A stretch of DNA of 28,750 nt from a virus. Below the pieces are notes generated by a model, which saw nothing but the letters and a program-made list of their open reading frames with translations, ran no database searches and was not told the DNA's origin. The translations under genes and the position numbers were made by a program. The stretch covers positions 1-28,750 of IMG/VR virus record IMGVR_UViG_3300046820_000758, one strand, 5' to 3'. Positions 18,322 through 24,906 of this stretch are shown here, in pieces. Each line of letters opens with the position of its first letter. Position 1 is the stretch's first letter.

Positions 18322-20217
18322 TTATTGGGGTACCGAGGTGTAAGAATCCCAAGAATCAAAAAACTTACCAGCCATATCAGGATTTTTCATAATGAGTCTT
18401 GTAAATTCATCTCCACTAACATCAGTAGTAACTTTAAGATTTACATTTTTTTGTCCTGATTGGTTGTTCGATGTTTGTGTCTTAGCCTTTTCAGCCTCTT
18501 CTTTAGCCTTTCTTTCCGCTTCAGCGACGGGAATAGTTTTTTGTGGTTCAGTTTGACTTTGTGCTTTTTTTCTACCTTCCACATTTGTAACGTCATTAAT
18601 CGTACTTGTAACTGCATTACCTAAACTATTAATTCCTTCAGCAGCCGCTTTACTCGCTTCTCTTGATTTTTTTGCAACTTCCATTGGGTCGAAGCCTAAC
18701 GCATCCACCACCGCTTTACCACTCTTCCCCATTTGAAGTCTCGCAGCCGCAGCAATAAAGTTTACATCTCTATTGATGTTTTCAACCAACCCAACTTGTT
18801 GTGTTGCGATGTCTTCCATTGACATCTTCTTAAATTGTTCCCTATATGTTAATAATGTTTCTTTTTGTTTTTCTGATAGTGATTCCAACGCTACAGTTGT
18901 TCCACCCATTGCCTCTTGTAAGTTTTTAGGAACCTCAATAACCATCTTACCATCTTTCATTTGAGCAAGATTGGTTAAGAACTCTTTATCTTCGTCATTA
19001 TTAAATGTTAAACCAGCAGCCATTAAATCTGCCGCTGCTGATGACCTTTGAGCAGCTTGTACTGAAAGTTTTGTTAATTCTGAATAAGAAATACCCAACT
19101 CTTTAGCCATCGCCTGTGCTTTTCTTAAGTTAGCACCTGTTACTTCAAATCTTCCTTGTTCGCTATTGTATGTGGCTAACGATTCTGCTGCCCCGATTAA
19201 TGCGTCTTGTAAATCTTCAACGTTATTTGTTGAATCATACATCATTTTAATTGGGTCACTGAAACTACCCATTGCACCACCAATAGCTTGAAGACCTGCC
19301 GCCATTGATAATGCGTTTTCAGGGTCCATAACTTTTTCTGCAAGTGTATAAACACTTTGCATATCCATCTTTAATTGTTGTGCTTTTTGAACCATACTAT
19401 TAAGTCCTTGAACACCGTTCTTAAAACCATACTGATTTAACTTGTCAATATTCTGAACTAAAGTCGCTGTAGTTGTTTTTGAATTTAAACCGAGTTCTAA
19501 TGAACCTTTACCGGCTTGTGCAATTGCTTTCATTGCATCGTTCGCACCCAATGAAACATCTTGAAACGCTTTTACAGCGTCAGCGGTGTCATCTAATCTA
19601 TTAAAAAAGACTCTACCTGTTTCGGTCATACTATTGATAGTCTCACTATTAACAAGTCTAAATGTTCCGGCGTTATCAATTAGTCGAACCATTGTTTGTT
19701 CTAATTCACTAAATGAATATCCTAATCTAACCGCATTTGGATATGCGTCCGTAATCTCACCTCTGAAATCTTCAGAAAGTTGACCGGTCATACCAAGTTT
19801 GGTATTAATTTCAGAATGTAAAGATGATTGTTGTTCTAATACGGTATAAATCGAATTTTGGATACCCTTACCGACATTTTCTACCATTTGACTAAAGGTA
19901 TTCAACTTACCTGTAGATTTATCAATGGCAACCTCGTATAGACCTTTTATACCAATGTTTTCACCCGCAGTTTGTTGTGAGTTTTTTAAACTTGCGGCAT
20001 CAATTGCGTTACCTATAAATTGTCCCGTATTGTCCATACCTGAACCTGTTGGGGTTGTAGTATCTGCGGATTTGGGGTTTGAGCTATCGTATAATCGACC
20101 AATATCAGATTCAGATGCGGTATCATCAATGGCTCTGTAAGCCTTAATGAAACCACTTCTGTCTCCTTTGTACCTGTTAAGTAAATTGTTTAAATCTTTT
20201 GCGGTTACATTAGCCAT
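18322..20217 (-). CDS. Tail tape-measure protein (probable)
   Basis: This 631-aa protein is rich in Ala, helical throughout and low in aromatic residues. It contains the Gly/Ala-rich amphipathic segments typical of tape measures (AAGLQAIGGAMGSFSDP, AAAEGINSLGNAVTSTINDV) and a K/E/A-rich stretch near the C-terminus (about 550-590) ending in a small basic/hydrophobic domain. T4 gp29, the tape measure of a contractile tail, is 590 aa. With the usual rule of about 0.15 nm per residue, this one would set a tail near 95 nm. Placement is diagnostic: it follows the tube gene and the chaperone-like gene with its out-of-frame extension, and precedes baseplate genes. No transmembrane or lysozyme domain is seen. 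The ATG at 20215-20217 has TATTTATA 19 bases upstream. Confidence 0.75.
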   Translation of the reverse strand: MANVTAKDLNNLLNRYKGDRSGFIKAYRAIDDTASESDIGRLYDSSNPKSADTTTPTGSGMDNTGQFIGNAIDAASLKNSQQTAGENIGIKGLYEVAIDKSTGKLNTFSQMVENVGKGIQNSIYTVLEQQSSLHSEINTKLGMTGQLSEDFRGEITDAYPNAVRLGYSFSELEQTMVRLIDNAGTFRLVNSETINSMTETGRVFFNRLDDTADAVKAFQDVSLGANDAMKAIAQAGKGSLELGLNSKTTTATLVQNIDKLNQYGFKNGVQGLNSMVQKAQQLKMDMQSVYTLAEKVMDPENALSMAAGLQAIGGAMGSFSDPIKMMYDSTNNVEDLQDALIGAAESLATYNSEQGRFEVTGANLRKAQAMAKELGISYSELTKLSVQAAQRSSAAADLMAAGLTFNNDEDKEFLTNLAQMKDGKMVIEVPKNLQEAMGGTTVALESLSEKQKETLLTYREQFKKMSMEDIATQQVGLVENINRDVNFIAAAARLQMGKSGKAVVDALGFDPMEVAKKSREASKAAAEGINSLGNAVTSTINDVTNVEGRKKAQSQTEPQKTIPVAEAERKAKEEAEKAKTQTSNNQSGQKNVNLKVTTDVSGDEFTRLIMKNPDMAGKFFDSWDSYTSVPQ

Positions 20218-20246: not shown

Positions 20247-20399
20247 TTAATTACTAGATTCCATTTCGAGAATGTAATTAATATAATATCTTCGAACATA
20301 AACCGGCATTGAGATTAAATCAGAGTAAGAAAACCCTCGTTTAACTAAAAATAGAATCTCGTCTAATTGTCCTTTCTTATAATCCGTAGAAAGGGCGAA
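20247..20399 (-). CDS. Out-of-frame (+1) extension of the gp26-like gene
   Basis: In the +1 frame the sequence stays open past the gp26-like stop, from 20399 to a TAA at 20247-20249. It encodes ALSTDYKKGQLDEILFLV, then KRGFSYSDLISMPVYVRRYY, then INYILEMESSN. This reads like a genuine tail-chaperone C-terminus, with a helical, Tyr-rich S-x-x-x-L-x-x-M-P-x-x-x-R-R-Y-Y pattern. Before its internal ATG, which would give only 20 residues, the part after the gp26-like stop has no ATG, GTG or TTG. It is therefore most simply reached by a ribosomal +1 shift at the T6 run, giving a 292-aa fusion: 243 residues from the gp26-like frame plus 49. A base-call error in the T6 run is the alternative. Confidence 0.65.
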   Translation of the reverse strand, partial: FALSTDYKKGQLDEILFLVKRGFSYSDLISMPVYVRRYYINYILEMESSN

Positions 20400-21126
20400 A
20401 AAACTCCACCCCGAAGCCGATTTCAACTTCGACTGTCTCTCCTGACGGGGTTGTAATATGTTGTACTAAATCTAAACTTGGTTTATTTTCTAAAATGTAT
20501 TTACGGAAATCTTGAGAATCTTTGATTGGCATTCTCTCAATAAAATTTCTAATTTGTAATTGGTCTTTAATTCCACCAACAGACTTAATCATCATTTCTA
20601 ATTGTCTTGTTATAACCGGCGCAACTCCTAAACCATTCCAACTATCTTTAATTTTATCAATCTCCTCTTGTTGTTTTTGCGTTAAGAACTTAAATGTGAT
20701 ATCTGTTTTACTTTTTTCCAAATAAAACTTAAACTCACCATTACTATCTTCCTCTAATTTAAAGTCTCTTAGTTTAACTTGTGATAAATCAGCAATGTGA
20801 TTGAATCTTTCTCCCGTTTTAGGGTCGGTTACTAACATCTTATAATCAGAACCAAAAGCTGTGTTTCTTAAAAACAAAAGAATCGCTTGTCTATCTTCTT
20901 CAACTAAATCATCAGTTGAGATGTCTTTATCTAAAACTTTTCTTTTTAGTAGTTCATTAACAACACCATTAGATTGTACTAAATTTGGTGATGCTAAAAT
21001 ATTTTCATCAGATGCAGTTAGATATGCAATTCTTAATGATTTTTTCTTTGTTGAATAGTGAATACCTCTACTAGGTAACTCAACAACGTCGTACGCAATC
21101 GTGGGGTCAACTTTAAATTCTTCCAT
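20377..21126 (-). CDS. gp26-like baseplate hub / tail-assembly-chaperone protein
   Basis: This 249-aa protein has the N-terminal ELPSRGIHY motif (from residue 17) followed by a strand-rich SLRIAYLTASDEN segment. That is the pattern of T4 gp26-type baseplate proteins: L-P-S-x-G, then a short region ending in E-N-I-L. The rest is mixed alpha/beta and ends VEIGFGVEFFRPFYGL. Gene order tube, this gene, tape measure is the position held by tail-assembly chaperones in many tailed phages. Such genes often make a second, frameshifted product, and here a +1 open frame continues past the stop. The ATG at 21124-21126 follows a palindrome and a terminator, so this gene begins a new transcription unit. 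It lacks the TATTTATA octamer seen before other structural units. Confidence 0.8.
   Translation of the reverse strand: MEEFKVDPTIAYDVVELPSRGIHYSTKKKSLRIAYLTASDENILASPNLVQSNGVVNELLKRKVLDKDISTDDLVEEDRQAILLFLRNTAFGSDYKMLVTDPKTGERFNHIADLSQVKLRDFKLEEDSNGEFKFYLEKSKTDITFKFLTQKQQEEIDKIKDSWNGLGVAPVITRQLEMMIKSVGGIKDQLQIRNFIERMPIKDSQDFRKYILENKPSLDLVQHITTPSGETVEVEIGFGVEFFRPFYGL
20395..20403 (-). other. Candidate +1 frameshift site UUU UUU CGC
   Basis: In frame 0 the codons are TTT (20403-20401), TTT (20400-20398) and CGC (20397-20395), eight codons before the TAA. tRNA-Phe on the second UUU can re-pair with UUC after slipping forward one base, with a probably slow CGC arginine codon in the A site. The motif resembles the UUU CGU site of influenza PA-X. 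Confidence 0.55.
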
Positions 21127-21228: not shown

Positions 21229-21717
21229 TTAGTATACAAGGATACATCTATCCATTCTCAATGTTGCACTGATATCAGCTAACGCATCTTGGCTATAATC
21301 CAATGTACCAAAATCCAAACCTGATAAGAATGTACCTTGAAGAATCCATTTTTCAACCACAACACCTGTTGGGTCTAACATTTCAAGTTCAATATCTTTT
21401 TTATATCCAGCTGCATATCCCATACGACCTGTTACAGATTCTGCGTGTAAACGGAACCACTCCATTAATGCTTGTGCAGCTGAAGGACCAATCGGGTCTT
21501 TAAATTTAACTGAAATTGATTCCCACTTAAATCTACCTGCAACATATGTTGAAGTATTCAAAAAAGGAATTTCTGTTTCAGCGATAGTTGCTTTAGGTCT
21601 TGAAGCCGATGTTACGTACCATTCGTTGATACCCAATGAAGATGGGAATCTTAGGATAAATCGGTTCTGTCTTTTCGGTTCGTAAGGAACCGGCATTTTC
21701 ATTAATAAATCTGCCAT
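21229..21717 (-). CDS. Tail tube protein, gp19-like
   Basis: This 162-aa protein is nearly the exact length of T4 gp19 (163 aa) and has the same plan. It has a start with conserved PYEPKRQNRFILRFPSSLG, a beta-rich middle with a W-x-S-I-S-V-K-F-K-D-P strand pair (about 65-75), the helix AAQALMEWFRLHAES (about 80-95), and a C-terminal strand region ending ATLRMDRCILVY. gp19 stacks as hexameric rings to form the inner tube, through which DNA passes. It stands alone between a 348-base non-coding leader region and its own terminator, as expected for one of the most abundant tail proteins. The ATG at 21715-21717 is preceded by ACAAATAGACA without a Shine-Dalgarno sequence. A TATTTATA octamer lies 34 bases upstream. 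Confidence 0.92.
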   Translation of the reverse strand: MADLLMKMPVPYEPKRQNRFILRFPSSLGINEWYVTSASRPKATIAETEIPFLNTSTYVAGRFKWESISVKFKDPIGPSAAQALMEWFRLHAESVTGRMGYAAGYKKDIELEMLDPTGVVVEKWILQGTFLSGLDFGTLDYSQDALADISATLRMDRCILVY

Positions 21718-22065: not shown

Positions 22066-24906
22066 TTAGATATTCTCAAATGATGCTCCTGTTGGAGTAA
22101 TGATGAATTCTACATCAATAAATTCAAGAGAACGAGTTGGTTTGATGTAAATCTTACCTCTCAATGTGTTAGCATCGATGTCCTCAGGGTCACTAGATAC
22201 TGTTACACGGAAGTCGTAAAGACCTCTTTCTTTCTTTATTGATTCAAGAATTGGGTTAACCAATCTCAAGAATTCTTGTCTTACTTGTTCATCGTTTTGT
22301 TCAAACAATAATCTAACAGCAACTGCAGAAATTAATTTTCTTGCTCTTAATAACAATCTTCTTACGTTGATTCTATCAAGTGCAGATTCTCTAACTTGTA
22401 ACGTTTTGTTACCCCAGATAATAGTACCTGTATCAGAGAATGTTGCGATTGGGTTGATTCTTGCTTTGTAAAGTGAATCTCTTTCGTCAAGAGTTAACTT
22501 TTTAAACGCTTTAATTGAATTAACCAAACCTCTTGAATAACCTGCTACCGCGAACCAAGGATAAGATACGTTATCAGTCAACGCGATGTTTCTTACAACT
22601 TCACCTGTTGGTGGTAAGTACAATTGAGTTGAGTTATCGTTATCTCTAACTTGAATCCAAGGCCAATATGTTGCAGAATAGTTACTATCCAAATTAGCTC
22701 CATCCAATAAATCAGTAATCTCATCAGCAGTTGATACGTTTGGTGAGTTAATGATGTAAAGTGAATCCGCTCTATCATTCTCAATAATATCAATTGTTTG
22801 AGTTACTAATGAATTGTGGTCATCAAAGTTGATACCTGGTGTTGCAAATATGTTAATATCTACAGCTTCAGGGTTTGAGTATGTTTCGATACCTTTTAAG
22901 TATGCGTAGTAATCAGAGTTACCTACTGTTGTACTGAATACACCACTGTTAGTTGTGTGTCCTGATACGTAAGTTCTTTTACCGAAAACATATCCATCAC
23001 CATTTGTTCTACTACTTCTGTAGATATCCCAACCATCAAATCCACCACATACTGCAAATGTGAATTTACGGAATGATATAGTGTCTAATTTTCCTTTATT
23101 AGAACCTTCTAAGTCGTAAGGTGTACAATCGAAAGCTTTACCTGTAATAGTATTACCTGTGATTGCAGATGCGTTTGTTGACAAGTGGAAACCTACGGTT
23201 ACCGCGTCAGGTGCTACACCTTTATATTTTAATAAATCACTATCAAATCCAATTTGAGATGAAAGACCTAAAGAAACTTTCTTTGGTTTATCACCTTGAG
23301 CCGATAATGTTGGTTCACCCGTTAATGAGAAAGAACCTGTTTCATCACCCGCTTCAAAGAATTGTGTTTTATATTTTACAGCTCCTAACACAGATGTTGA
23401 GTTTGCTAAGTTGTCTGCAACGAATCCTTTGAAACCTGCAGGAATTGCATCTTCAGGATGTTCGTCAGCCATAACTAACATAATGTATTTTGAACGTAAT
23501 TCATATTCACCATCTTGAGTACCTACTTTTCTACCAACATAACCTGGTAACGATGAATTCATAGTACATCTTGTGAATTTCTCCAAAACAACCATATTAT
23601 CATCACTATCATTAAAGTCACGAACAAGTATATCAAACTCACCTGTATCTAAGTCGATGTTAAGAAGAGTAATTTTTACTTGGTAGTTTGCCGCGTTACC
23701 GTCAGAAACTGTGAACACTTGGAAAAGGTCTGAAACTTTACCACCTCGTACTTCAGAAACAACCATTGGTGATGCTGGAGTATCCCACTCACCAACGAAA
23801 TCGTTACCAACTGTATGGTAAACTTCACTTAGACTTAAACCAAGGATTAAACCTTGTTCATATAATGTTTTAATTAAAGTTGGATAAACTTCGTGTACAT
23901 AAACAGGAATTTCATCACGTTTTTTATCAAACACATCTAAACCAATTACTTTGGTGATGTATTTTGATGACGTAGTATCTAAAGAACAAGTAAATTCTTT
24001 TGCTCCACTTGTAGAACCTGTTACATTAATTGTAAATTCTCCTAATGGATTTGTTGTTAATGTATCAGATGTAACTATAAATGCAGAATTTGAAGTTACT
24101 TCTAAATTTAAAGAATCTGTAGTGTATCCACCTCTTGGTCTTAGTGCTGCAACAGTGATGTCACCATAGTCATTACTTGTTGTACCTGTGTAATTGTATC
24201 TTGTAACTACGAAAGTTGAACTCGCTCCTGAATAGTGGAACAAATATGAATATAATCCATTAACGTTTCCACCACTTGTAGTGTAGAAATTGTTGTACCA
24301 ATTCTGATTTGTATATTCACCTAATGGACTAGGTAATTGAGTTCCTGTTTCTGCAGCAATAGCAGCTTCAGGAACCACACCGATTGTAAACCAATCGTTA
24401 TTTGAATATGTTGCTCCATCAAGGATAAAATCAGTTACACTATCACCTGTAGATGCAGTTTTACCTGATAACGCTCCGTAGAATGTACTTCCTGTAATTC
24501 CGTTTACTGTTGGTACCAATGTACCTGAAGTTGAAACAGGGGTTTCGGTAGAATTCCAAGAGATACCTGCAATTGTTTTGATACCGAATGTTTTATTAGG
24601 TTTGAAACCTGTTAAACCAAGTACTCTTGTTACGAATAATTGGTTAGATTCTTGTAAATACGCTTTTGCCACATATGCCAATTCGTACTTTGGGTTACCG
24701 TTACCGTATTTTTCAGGTGAGGTAGTACCAAAGTAAGTTTTGAATTCATCAAAATCTGTAATCAATACGGGTTCGAAAGCTGGACCTTTTAAAGTTTCAC
24801 CTGCTAAACCTAATGTTGTTACTCCGACACTTTGTGCAACAAATGTTAAGTCTTTCTCTGATGTGTAGACACCCGGAGAAACGAATACTTTGTTTGAATT
24901 TGCCAT
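22066..24906 (-). CDS. Tail sheath protein, gp18-like, enlarged
   Basis: The 946-aa protein begins with the canonical sheath opening FVSPGVYTSEKDLT and a VGVTTLGLAGETLKGPA segment. It closes with the conserved C-terminal handshake region: YPWFAVAGYSRG, IIWGNKTLQ, RINVRRLLLRARKLISAVA, EQNDEQVRQEF, DFRVTVS and a final strand (FIDVEFIITPTGASFE). T4 gp18 is 659 aa. The excess lies mainly between residues about 110 and 480, where Thr/Ser/Gly-rich, beta-type sequence (GSTSGAKEFTCSLDTT, NFYTTSGGNVNGLYSY) is inserted around an ALRPRGGYTTDSL core strand. These are probably surface domains on the outside of the sheath. The sheath contracts to drive the tube into the host. It has a 37-base leader after a TATTTATT octamer and its own terminator. 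Confidence 0.93.
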   Translation of the reverse strand: MANSNKVFVSPGVYTSEKDLTFVAQSVGVTTLGLAGETLKGPAFEPVLITDFDEFKTYFGTTSPEKYGNGNPKYELAYVAKAYLQESNQLFVTRVLGLTGFKPNKTFGIKTIAGISWNSTETPVSTSGTLVPTVNGITGSTFYGALSGKTASTGDSVTDFILDGATYSNNDWFTIGVVPEAAIAAETGTQLPSPLGEYTNQNWYNNFYTTSGGNVNGLYSYLFHYSGASSTFVVTRYNYTGTTSNDYGDITVAALRPRGGYTTDSLNLEVTSNSAFIVTSDTLTTNPLGEFTINVTGSTSGAKEFTCSLDTTSSKYITKVIGLDVFDKKRDEIPVYVHEVYPTLIKTLYEQGLILGLSLSEVYHTVGNDFVGEWDTPASPMVVSEVRGGKVSDLFQVFTVSDGNAANYQVKITLLNIDLDTGEFDILVRDFNDSDDNMVVLEKFTRCTMNSSLPGYVGRKVGTQDGEYELRSKYIMLVMADEHPEDAIPAGFKGFVADNLANSTSVLGAVKYKTQFFEAGDETGSFSLTGEPTLSAQGDKPKKVSLGLSSQIGFDSDLLKYKGVAPDAVTVGFHLSTNASAITGNTITGKAFDCTPYDLEGSNKGKLDTISFRKFTFAVCGGFDGWDIYRSSRTNGDGYVFGKRTYVSGHTTNSGVFSTTVGNSDYYAYLKGIETYSNPEAVDINIFATPGINFDDHNSLVTQTIDIIENDRADSLYIINSPNVSTADEITDLLDGANLDSNYSATYWPWIQVRDNDNSTQLYLPPTGEVVRNIALTDNVSYPWFAVAGYSRGLVNSIKAFKKLTLDERDSLYKARINPIATFSDTGTIIWGNKTLQVRESALDRINVRRLLLRARKLISAVAVRLLFEQNDEQVRQEFLRLVNPILESIKKERGLYDFRVTVSSDPEDIDANTLRGKIYIKPTRSLEFIDVEFIITPTGASFENI

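Follow-up and report, generated by a model that had tools for sequence, protein, structure and literature searches.

The sequence studied here, an IMG/VR virus contig of 28,750 bases that is referred to as the window throughout, carries a gp26-like gene on its minus strand, with a second open frame overlapping its 3′ end. The features of this region are listed below.

21229..21717, minus strand: tail tube protein gene (gp19-like), directly upstream of the gp26-like gene (phrog_4542 tail tube, 4.8e-24)
20377..21126, minus strand: gp26-like gene, whose frame 0 gives the 249-aa short form of the putative tail assembly chaperone
20437..20445, minus strand: AGGAG-containing stretch TCAGGAGAG, synonymously conserved, approximately 30 nt upstream of the slip site
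20404..20412, minus strand: Shine-Dalgarno-like stretch GGGGTGGAG, a candidate stimulator, with its end 3 nt upstream of the P-site codon
20395..20403, minus strand: putative slip site TTT TTT CGC, with T6 at 20403-20398 and CGC at 20397-20395
20400-20398, minus strand: presumed P-site Phe codon TTT, with predicted +1 re-pairing to TTC and the rare Arg codon CGC in the A site
20377..20379, minus strand: frame-0 stop TAA, end of the short form
20250..20396, minus strand: +1-frame extension ALSTDYKKGQLDEILFLVKRGFSYSDLISMPVYVRRYYINYILEMESSN, 49 codons, predicted C-terminal domain of the long form
20249-20247, minus strand: stop TAA of the +1 extension
18322..20217, minus strand: 631-aa gene downstream of the chaperone gene, tape measure candidate by synteny

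Profile searches of the window returned no family match for the 631-aa downstream gene, and the gene at the corresponding place in Flavobacterium phage immuto carries a tail tape measure annotation. Judged by this synteny, the gp26-like gene would sit between the genes for the tail tube and the tape measure. Further upstream, a sheath-like ORF (22066-24906, minus strand) is unusually long at 946 aa; its C-terminal third matches tail sheath families and its first ~640 residues match little.

In profile searches the product of the gp26-like gene scored 36.1 bits against PF12322 (T4_baseplate; cut-off 24.5) and matched phrog_150 (baseplate hub) at 1.9e-12. Structure prediction with AlphaFold covered the frame-0 protein only, and this 249-aa model (pLDDT 87.5) matched gp26/baseplate-hub proteins in BFVD, among them those of Bacillus phage SP-15 (1.6e-14) and Aeromonas phage 25 (gp26, 3.6e-4). 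Searches of solved structures (PDB) with the short form returned no relative by sequence and nothing significant by fold.

A preliminary description of this DNA had placed TTT TTT CGC eight codons before the frame-0 TAA and a +1 frame open for 49 codons up to the TAA at 20249-20247, and both were found exactly there; translation with a +1 shift yields a fused product of 292 aa, the long form. It had further suggested that a gp26-like tail chaperone gene is shifted +1 at UUU_CGC, and this reading gained support from the conservation of the site and of the amino acid sequence of the extension, as detailed below.

In the first search for relatives, sequences of 59-100% identity and one relative at 33% were retrieved, and the extension was present in all of them. 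A degenerate pattern search, with third positions and the choice between CGN and AGR left free, recovered around 120 stretches, every one with TTTTTT CGN and an open +1 frame. Since that pattern touched the slip site and was biased in this respect, the search was repeated with the N-terminal domain only, resulting in an unbiased clade-A set of 78 readable loci. The first TTT was retained in 77 of these, the second TTT in 78/78 and CGN likewise in 78/78, so that T6-CGN with its open +1 frame is kept in related gp26-like genes as the preliminary description would predict. With the exception of contigs cut off inside the site, slip site and extension were kept in every readable clade-A locus from the N-terminal search; two loci (L189 and L214) read TTC TTT CGC and keep the extension. 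Overall, apart from a few relatives that changed strategy, all readable ones share the site together with the open +1 frame, well beyond what chance would give.

The main alternative named at the outset was an assembly or homopolymer sequencing error splitting one continuous gene, a T6 run being an error-prone place. This alternative was refuted by the comparative data and retains virtually no probability: numerous assemblies made independently agree on the T6, the arrangement recurs in the complete genomes of isolates, the frame-0 tail RPFYG shows conservation of its own, and none of the relatives examined reads through in one uninterrupted frame.

Codon usage makes the slip site stand out further. 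Arginine in these contigs is encoded by AGR in ~88% of cases and by CGN in 11.5%, with CGC accounting for 0.8% (0.6% of Arg codons in the window). Codon controls were performed on 70 clade-A representatives of less than 85% identity, in which conserved Arg columns elsewhere in the chaperone gene are AGA in 63/68 and 56/70, and in which the first TTT of the slip site is kept in 69/70, above background strictness. As conserved Arg and Phe codons elsewhere in the gene use AGA and TTC freely, the pattern at the slip site is not phylogenetic inertia. Moreover, the selected C following TTT is unconstrained by either protein, as CGN and AGR both encode Arg and the base is skipped in +1 reading; its retention is explained by re-pairing from UUU to UUC.

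Past the end of the short form, the +1 frame has a pN/pS of 0.32, vs 1.05 and 1.46 for the other two frames, and variation in the extension region is greatest at third positions; only the +1 reading of the extension is thus under purifying selection. The amino acid sequence of the extension is conserved among relatives, as had been anticipated, with the motif YKKxQLDEILFLVKRGFSYxDIxxMPxYxRRYYxxYxxE. A rival reading is that the extension is a separate small protein translated from its own start codon. The claim that the extension lacks a start codon did not hold strictly in the window, where one TTG lies in the +1 frame 23 nt before T6, and in loci L304 and L306 and in Pseudomonas phage Cygsa01 the extension occupies a different frame and has a leading Met. 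The claim stood, however, for many relatives: in 16/70 clade-A representatives and 34/76 clade-B loci the segment that starts after the last +1 stop and runs to the frame-0 stop contains neither ATG, GTG nor TTG, and the last upstream +1 stop can be as near as 2 nt from T6, so separate initiation is not a general explanation. It would also leave the invariance of TTTTTTCGN unexplained, and we consider it extremely improbable as an account of the locus.

The site and its extension were then followed into distant relatives, with Microcystis phage Mel-JY01, Flavobacterium phage immuto and the huge phage LR756508 as search seeds. At approximately 75 additional loci the site is TTT TTT TGG or a near variant of it, and where the locus is complete the +1 extension measures 66-114 aa; the immuto clade contributes 62 loci with TTT CTT TGG, 14 marine loci have TTC TTT TGG with a T run of only four, and one locus (L269) has GCT TTT TGG, the extension being intact or kept in all three cases. 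A +1 extension likewise follows TTT TTT CAC in Bacillus phage SP-15, TTC TTT CGT in Streptococcus phage GXN1 and TTT TTT TGG in Rhodothermus phage RM378, and the same layout is thus found in the named phages Mel-JY01, immuto, SP-15, GXN1 and RM378. Among the distant clades the tetranucleotide is UUU_U (88 loci preceded by TTT, 14 with only four consecutive T), UUU_C or CUU_U (65 loci). The presumed P-site codon with its following base is TTT_C, TTT_T or CTT_T in 246/250 loci, a count that includes L306, whose extension lies in another frame.

The variants TTC TTT CGC, TTC TTT TGG and TTT CTT TGG argue against sequencing error and against two other routes to the same frame. A ribosomal shift of −2 on T6, as in phage Mu, would produce the long form with one extra Phe; most sites do possess six or seven T, and the first TTT, which a −2 shift would need, is the one kept above background. 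However, at TTC TTT CGC, TTC TTT TGG and GCT TTT TGG such a shift would place tRNA-Phe on UCU or CUU, and the extension is kept nonetheless, whereas +1 re-pairing stays perfect in all three; we therefore hold a −2 shift to be very unlikely. Slippage of RNA polymerase on the T run, by which transcripts lacking one U or carrying two extra would encode the long form, draws on the T6-T8 runs present at most sites, and the title of Vladimirov et al. 2022 was counted in its favour. Against it, the extension is intact at TTT CTT TGG in the 62 immuto-clade loci and at the four-T sites of the 14 marine loci, and slippage gives no reason for C rather than A after the run, nor for a rare A-site codon. 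The longest T run is six in the window and only 3 or 4 in 84/250 loci, unlike the long uninterrupted homopolymer of transcriptional slippage sites, and runs of three or four T are unlikely to provoke slippage. Polymerase slippage is accordingly rated a shade below the −2 shift, as highly improbable.

Several loci depart from the +1 arrangement. In L273 (clade B; L273:4735 onwards) the site reads TTC TTC TGG and the canonical −1 heptamer A_AAT_TTC precedes an extension that lies in the −1 frame, which gives the appearance of a switch from +1 to −1 shifting. L304 and L306 have TTC TTG TAT or TTC CTT TGG, and here the extension, in its other frame, is probably a separate gene. In Kyanoviridae, Emmerichvirinae, Schizotequatrovirus, phage DLP6 and a Variovorax phage, T_TTT_TTC or T_TTT_TTT is found with the extension in the −1 frame. 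In cyanophage and other T4-like gp26 loci (L298, L300, L301 and L409-L413), such a −1 extension after T_TTT_TTC or T_TTT_TTT is annotated by several records as a small 'hub assembly catalyst' gene of its own. Synechococcus phage S-SCSM1 (L299:3687-3874) differs from the other cyanophages examined in that its extension is +1 and includes internal Met codons.

The search for stimulators of a +1 shift centred on the sequence before T6. Three codons upstream, GGG is used in 78/78 unbiased loci and 62/70 representatives, compared with 5.5% of Gly codons genome-wide. The resulting GGGGTNGAR is complementary to the 16S anti-Shine-Dalgarno, with a mean duplex energy of −7.9 kcal/mol, where synonymously drawn sequences give −6.12 +/- 0.15 and the gene background gives −0.3 kcal/mol; in clade B the Shine-Dalgarno-like signal before the site is much weaker. 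In RF2 mRNA, the Shine-Dalgarno likewise ends 3 nt from the P-site codon. A Shine-Dalgarno signal was looked for at the gene starts of these contigs and none was seen, which makes the upstream element odd and suggests a host such as a Bacteroidota bacterium. We rate it as unlikely, though conceivable, that GGGGUNGAR, with its end 3 nt ahead of the P-site codon, acts as a true stimulator with RF2-like placement. If it were, output of the long form would depend on the exposure of the anti-Shine-Dalgarno on host ribosomes, and tail assembly would be coupled to the condition of the ribosomes at late stages of infection. The second stretch, TCAGGAGA (20437-20445), uses GGA in 61/63 and TCA in 58/70 at conserved Gly and Ser, and contains AGGAG despite the lack of Shine-Dalgarno at gene starts. 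Downstream of the site, RNAalifold detected no conserved RNA structure of note in the 70 representatives; +1 sites are often without downstream RNA structure.

Taken on this comparative evidence, the gene is very probably a T4-type tail assembly chaperone gene that normally yields the short form of 249 aa and, by programmed +1 frameshifting, a minor long form of 292 aa. We infer the shift itself, its re-pairing step and the ratio of the products to be as follows: with the P-site tRNA-Phe paired to the second UUU and CGC, a seldom used Arg codon, in the A site, tRNA-Phe would re-pair one base forward, onto UUC; GCC would then enter the A site and 49 more codons would be read, the long form being the minor product. 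By analogy with lambda G/GT, the short domain may coat the tape measure protein and the extension of the long form may recruit the tail tube protein.

The comparison with influenza PA-X made in the preliminary description is apt, PA-X shifting in the +1 direction at UCC_UUU_CGU (PMC3498833), and bacterial UUU_Y is the closer precedent. The tetranucleotides at the presumed P site of the 246 loci are of types already known as +1-prone in bacteria, namely UUU_Y, which is particularly so, and the CUU_U of RF2 (PMC5009743). In PA-X, at bacterial UUU_Y and at CUU_U of RF2, the P-site tRNA re-pairs from UUU to UUC/UUU, or from CUU to UUU, before a slow A-site codon, and the same would apply here. The genes of PA-X and RF2 are nevertheless unrelated to this chaperone, and the A site, which holds a stop codon in RF2, is occupied by a sense codon (CGN or TGG) in the present phages.

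The tail assembly chaperone frameshift of the lambda G/GT type was reportedly described by Xu, Hendrix and Duda in 2004. The lambda chaperone uses a −1 shift, and Mu uses −2. As in lambda G/GT, the gene studied here lies between tail tube and presumptive tape measure, with the shift near its 3′ end and a conserved startless C-terminal extension; the direction differs, being −1 in lambda and apparently +1 here. Neither sequence nor fold comparison revealed similarity to the lambda/HK97 chaperone, HK97 2ob9 appearing only with a Foldseek E of 4.6. The haloarchaeal HSTV-2 chaperone is reported to be shifted +1 with high likelihood (PMC5009743). A 2025 paper (PMC12846349) attributes the poly-T −1 signals in chaperone genes of T4-like phages to Vladimirov et al. 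2022 and names Kyanoviridae, Schizotequatrovirus, Emmerichvirinae and phage DLP6 as carrying these sites. These groups share with the present gene the family, the same kind of extension motif and poly-T at the shift; in Kyanoviridae-type genes, however, T6C stands in the other phase (T_TTT_TTC) and the extension is −1, rather than +1 as here.

T4 has two PF12322 genes, 26 (short) and 51 (long), the product of the latter being annotated as a chaperone in T4. These hub assembly chaperones belong to the same Pfam family as the gene in the window, gp26 resembling the short form and gp51 the short form plus extension: gp26 ends close to the equivalent of the short-form end, and gp51 has 40-45 further residues collinear with the +1 extension. 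On its own, the extension gave no Pfam family match and no meaningful PHROG match. Once it was added to the window protein, the end of the phrog_150 match moved from profile position 233 to 265/282, and the fused Mel-JY01 protein reached position 274. An hhalign comparison of the extended family with two gp51 sequences only gave a collinear but weak match (probability 16%), and we regard the longer phrog_150 match as the better evidence for a putative link between the extension and gp51. Eight +1 contigs (125-288 kb) and LR756508 hold one PF12322 match each, and a single family-profile match each was found in Mel-JY01, immuto, SP-15, RM378 and five more contigs. While T4 has separate genes for the short and long forms, the +1 phages tested have one PF12322-type gene, which would supply both forms via the +1 shift.

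It is highly likely that +1 frameshifting in this T4-type chaperone is real and widely conserved, and that it belongs to a known functional class. Frameshifting of tail chaperones was already known; what looks new is the deep conservation of the +1 route, the site seeming to be conserved across a large, mostly unstudied group of tailed phages. In the annotated relatives immuto, Mel-JY01, SP-15 and RM378 the long form is missing or split. With two products from one gene, it would be a counterpart of the T4 gp26/gp51 pair and a link from the frameshifted chaperones of the lambda type to the two genes of T4. Together with the −1 sites of cyanophages, it would mean that one chaperone family relies on shifts of +1 and of −1, on separate genes and perhaps on split ORFs, and the hundreds of natural variants may serve as a library for the requirements of bacterial +1 sites without a stop codon in the A site.
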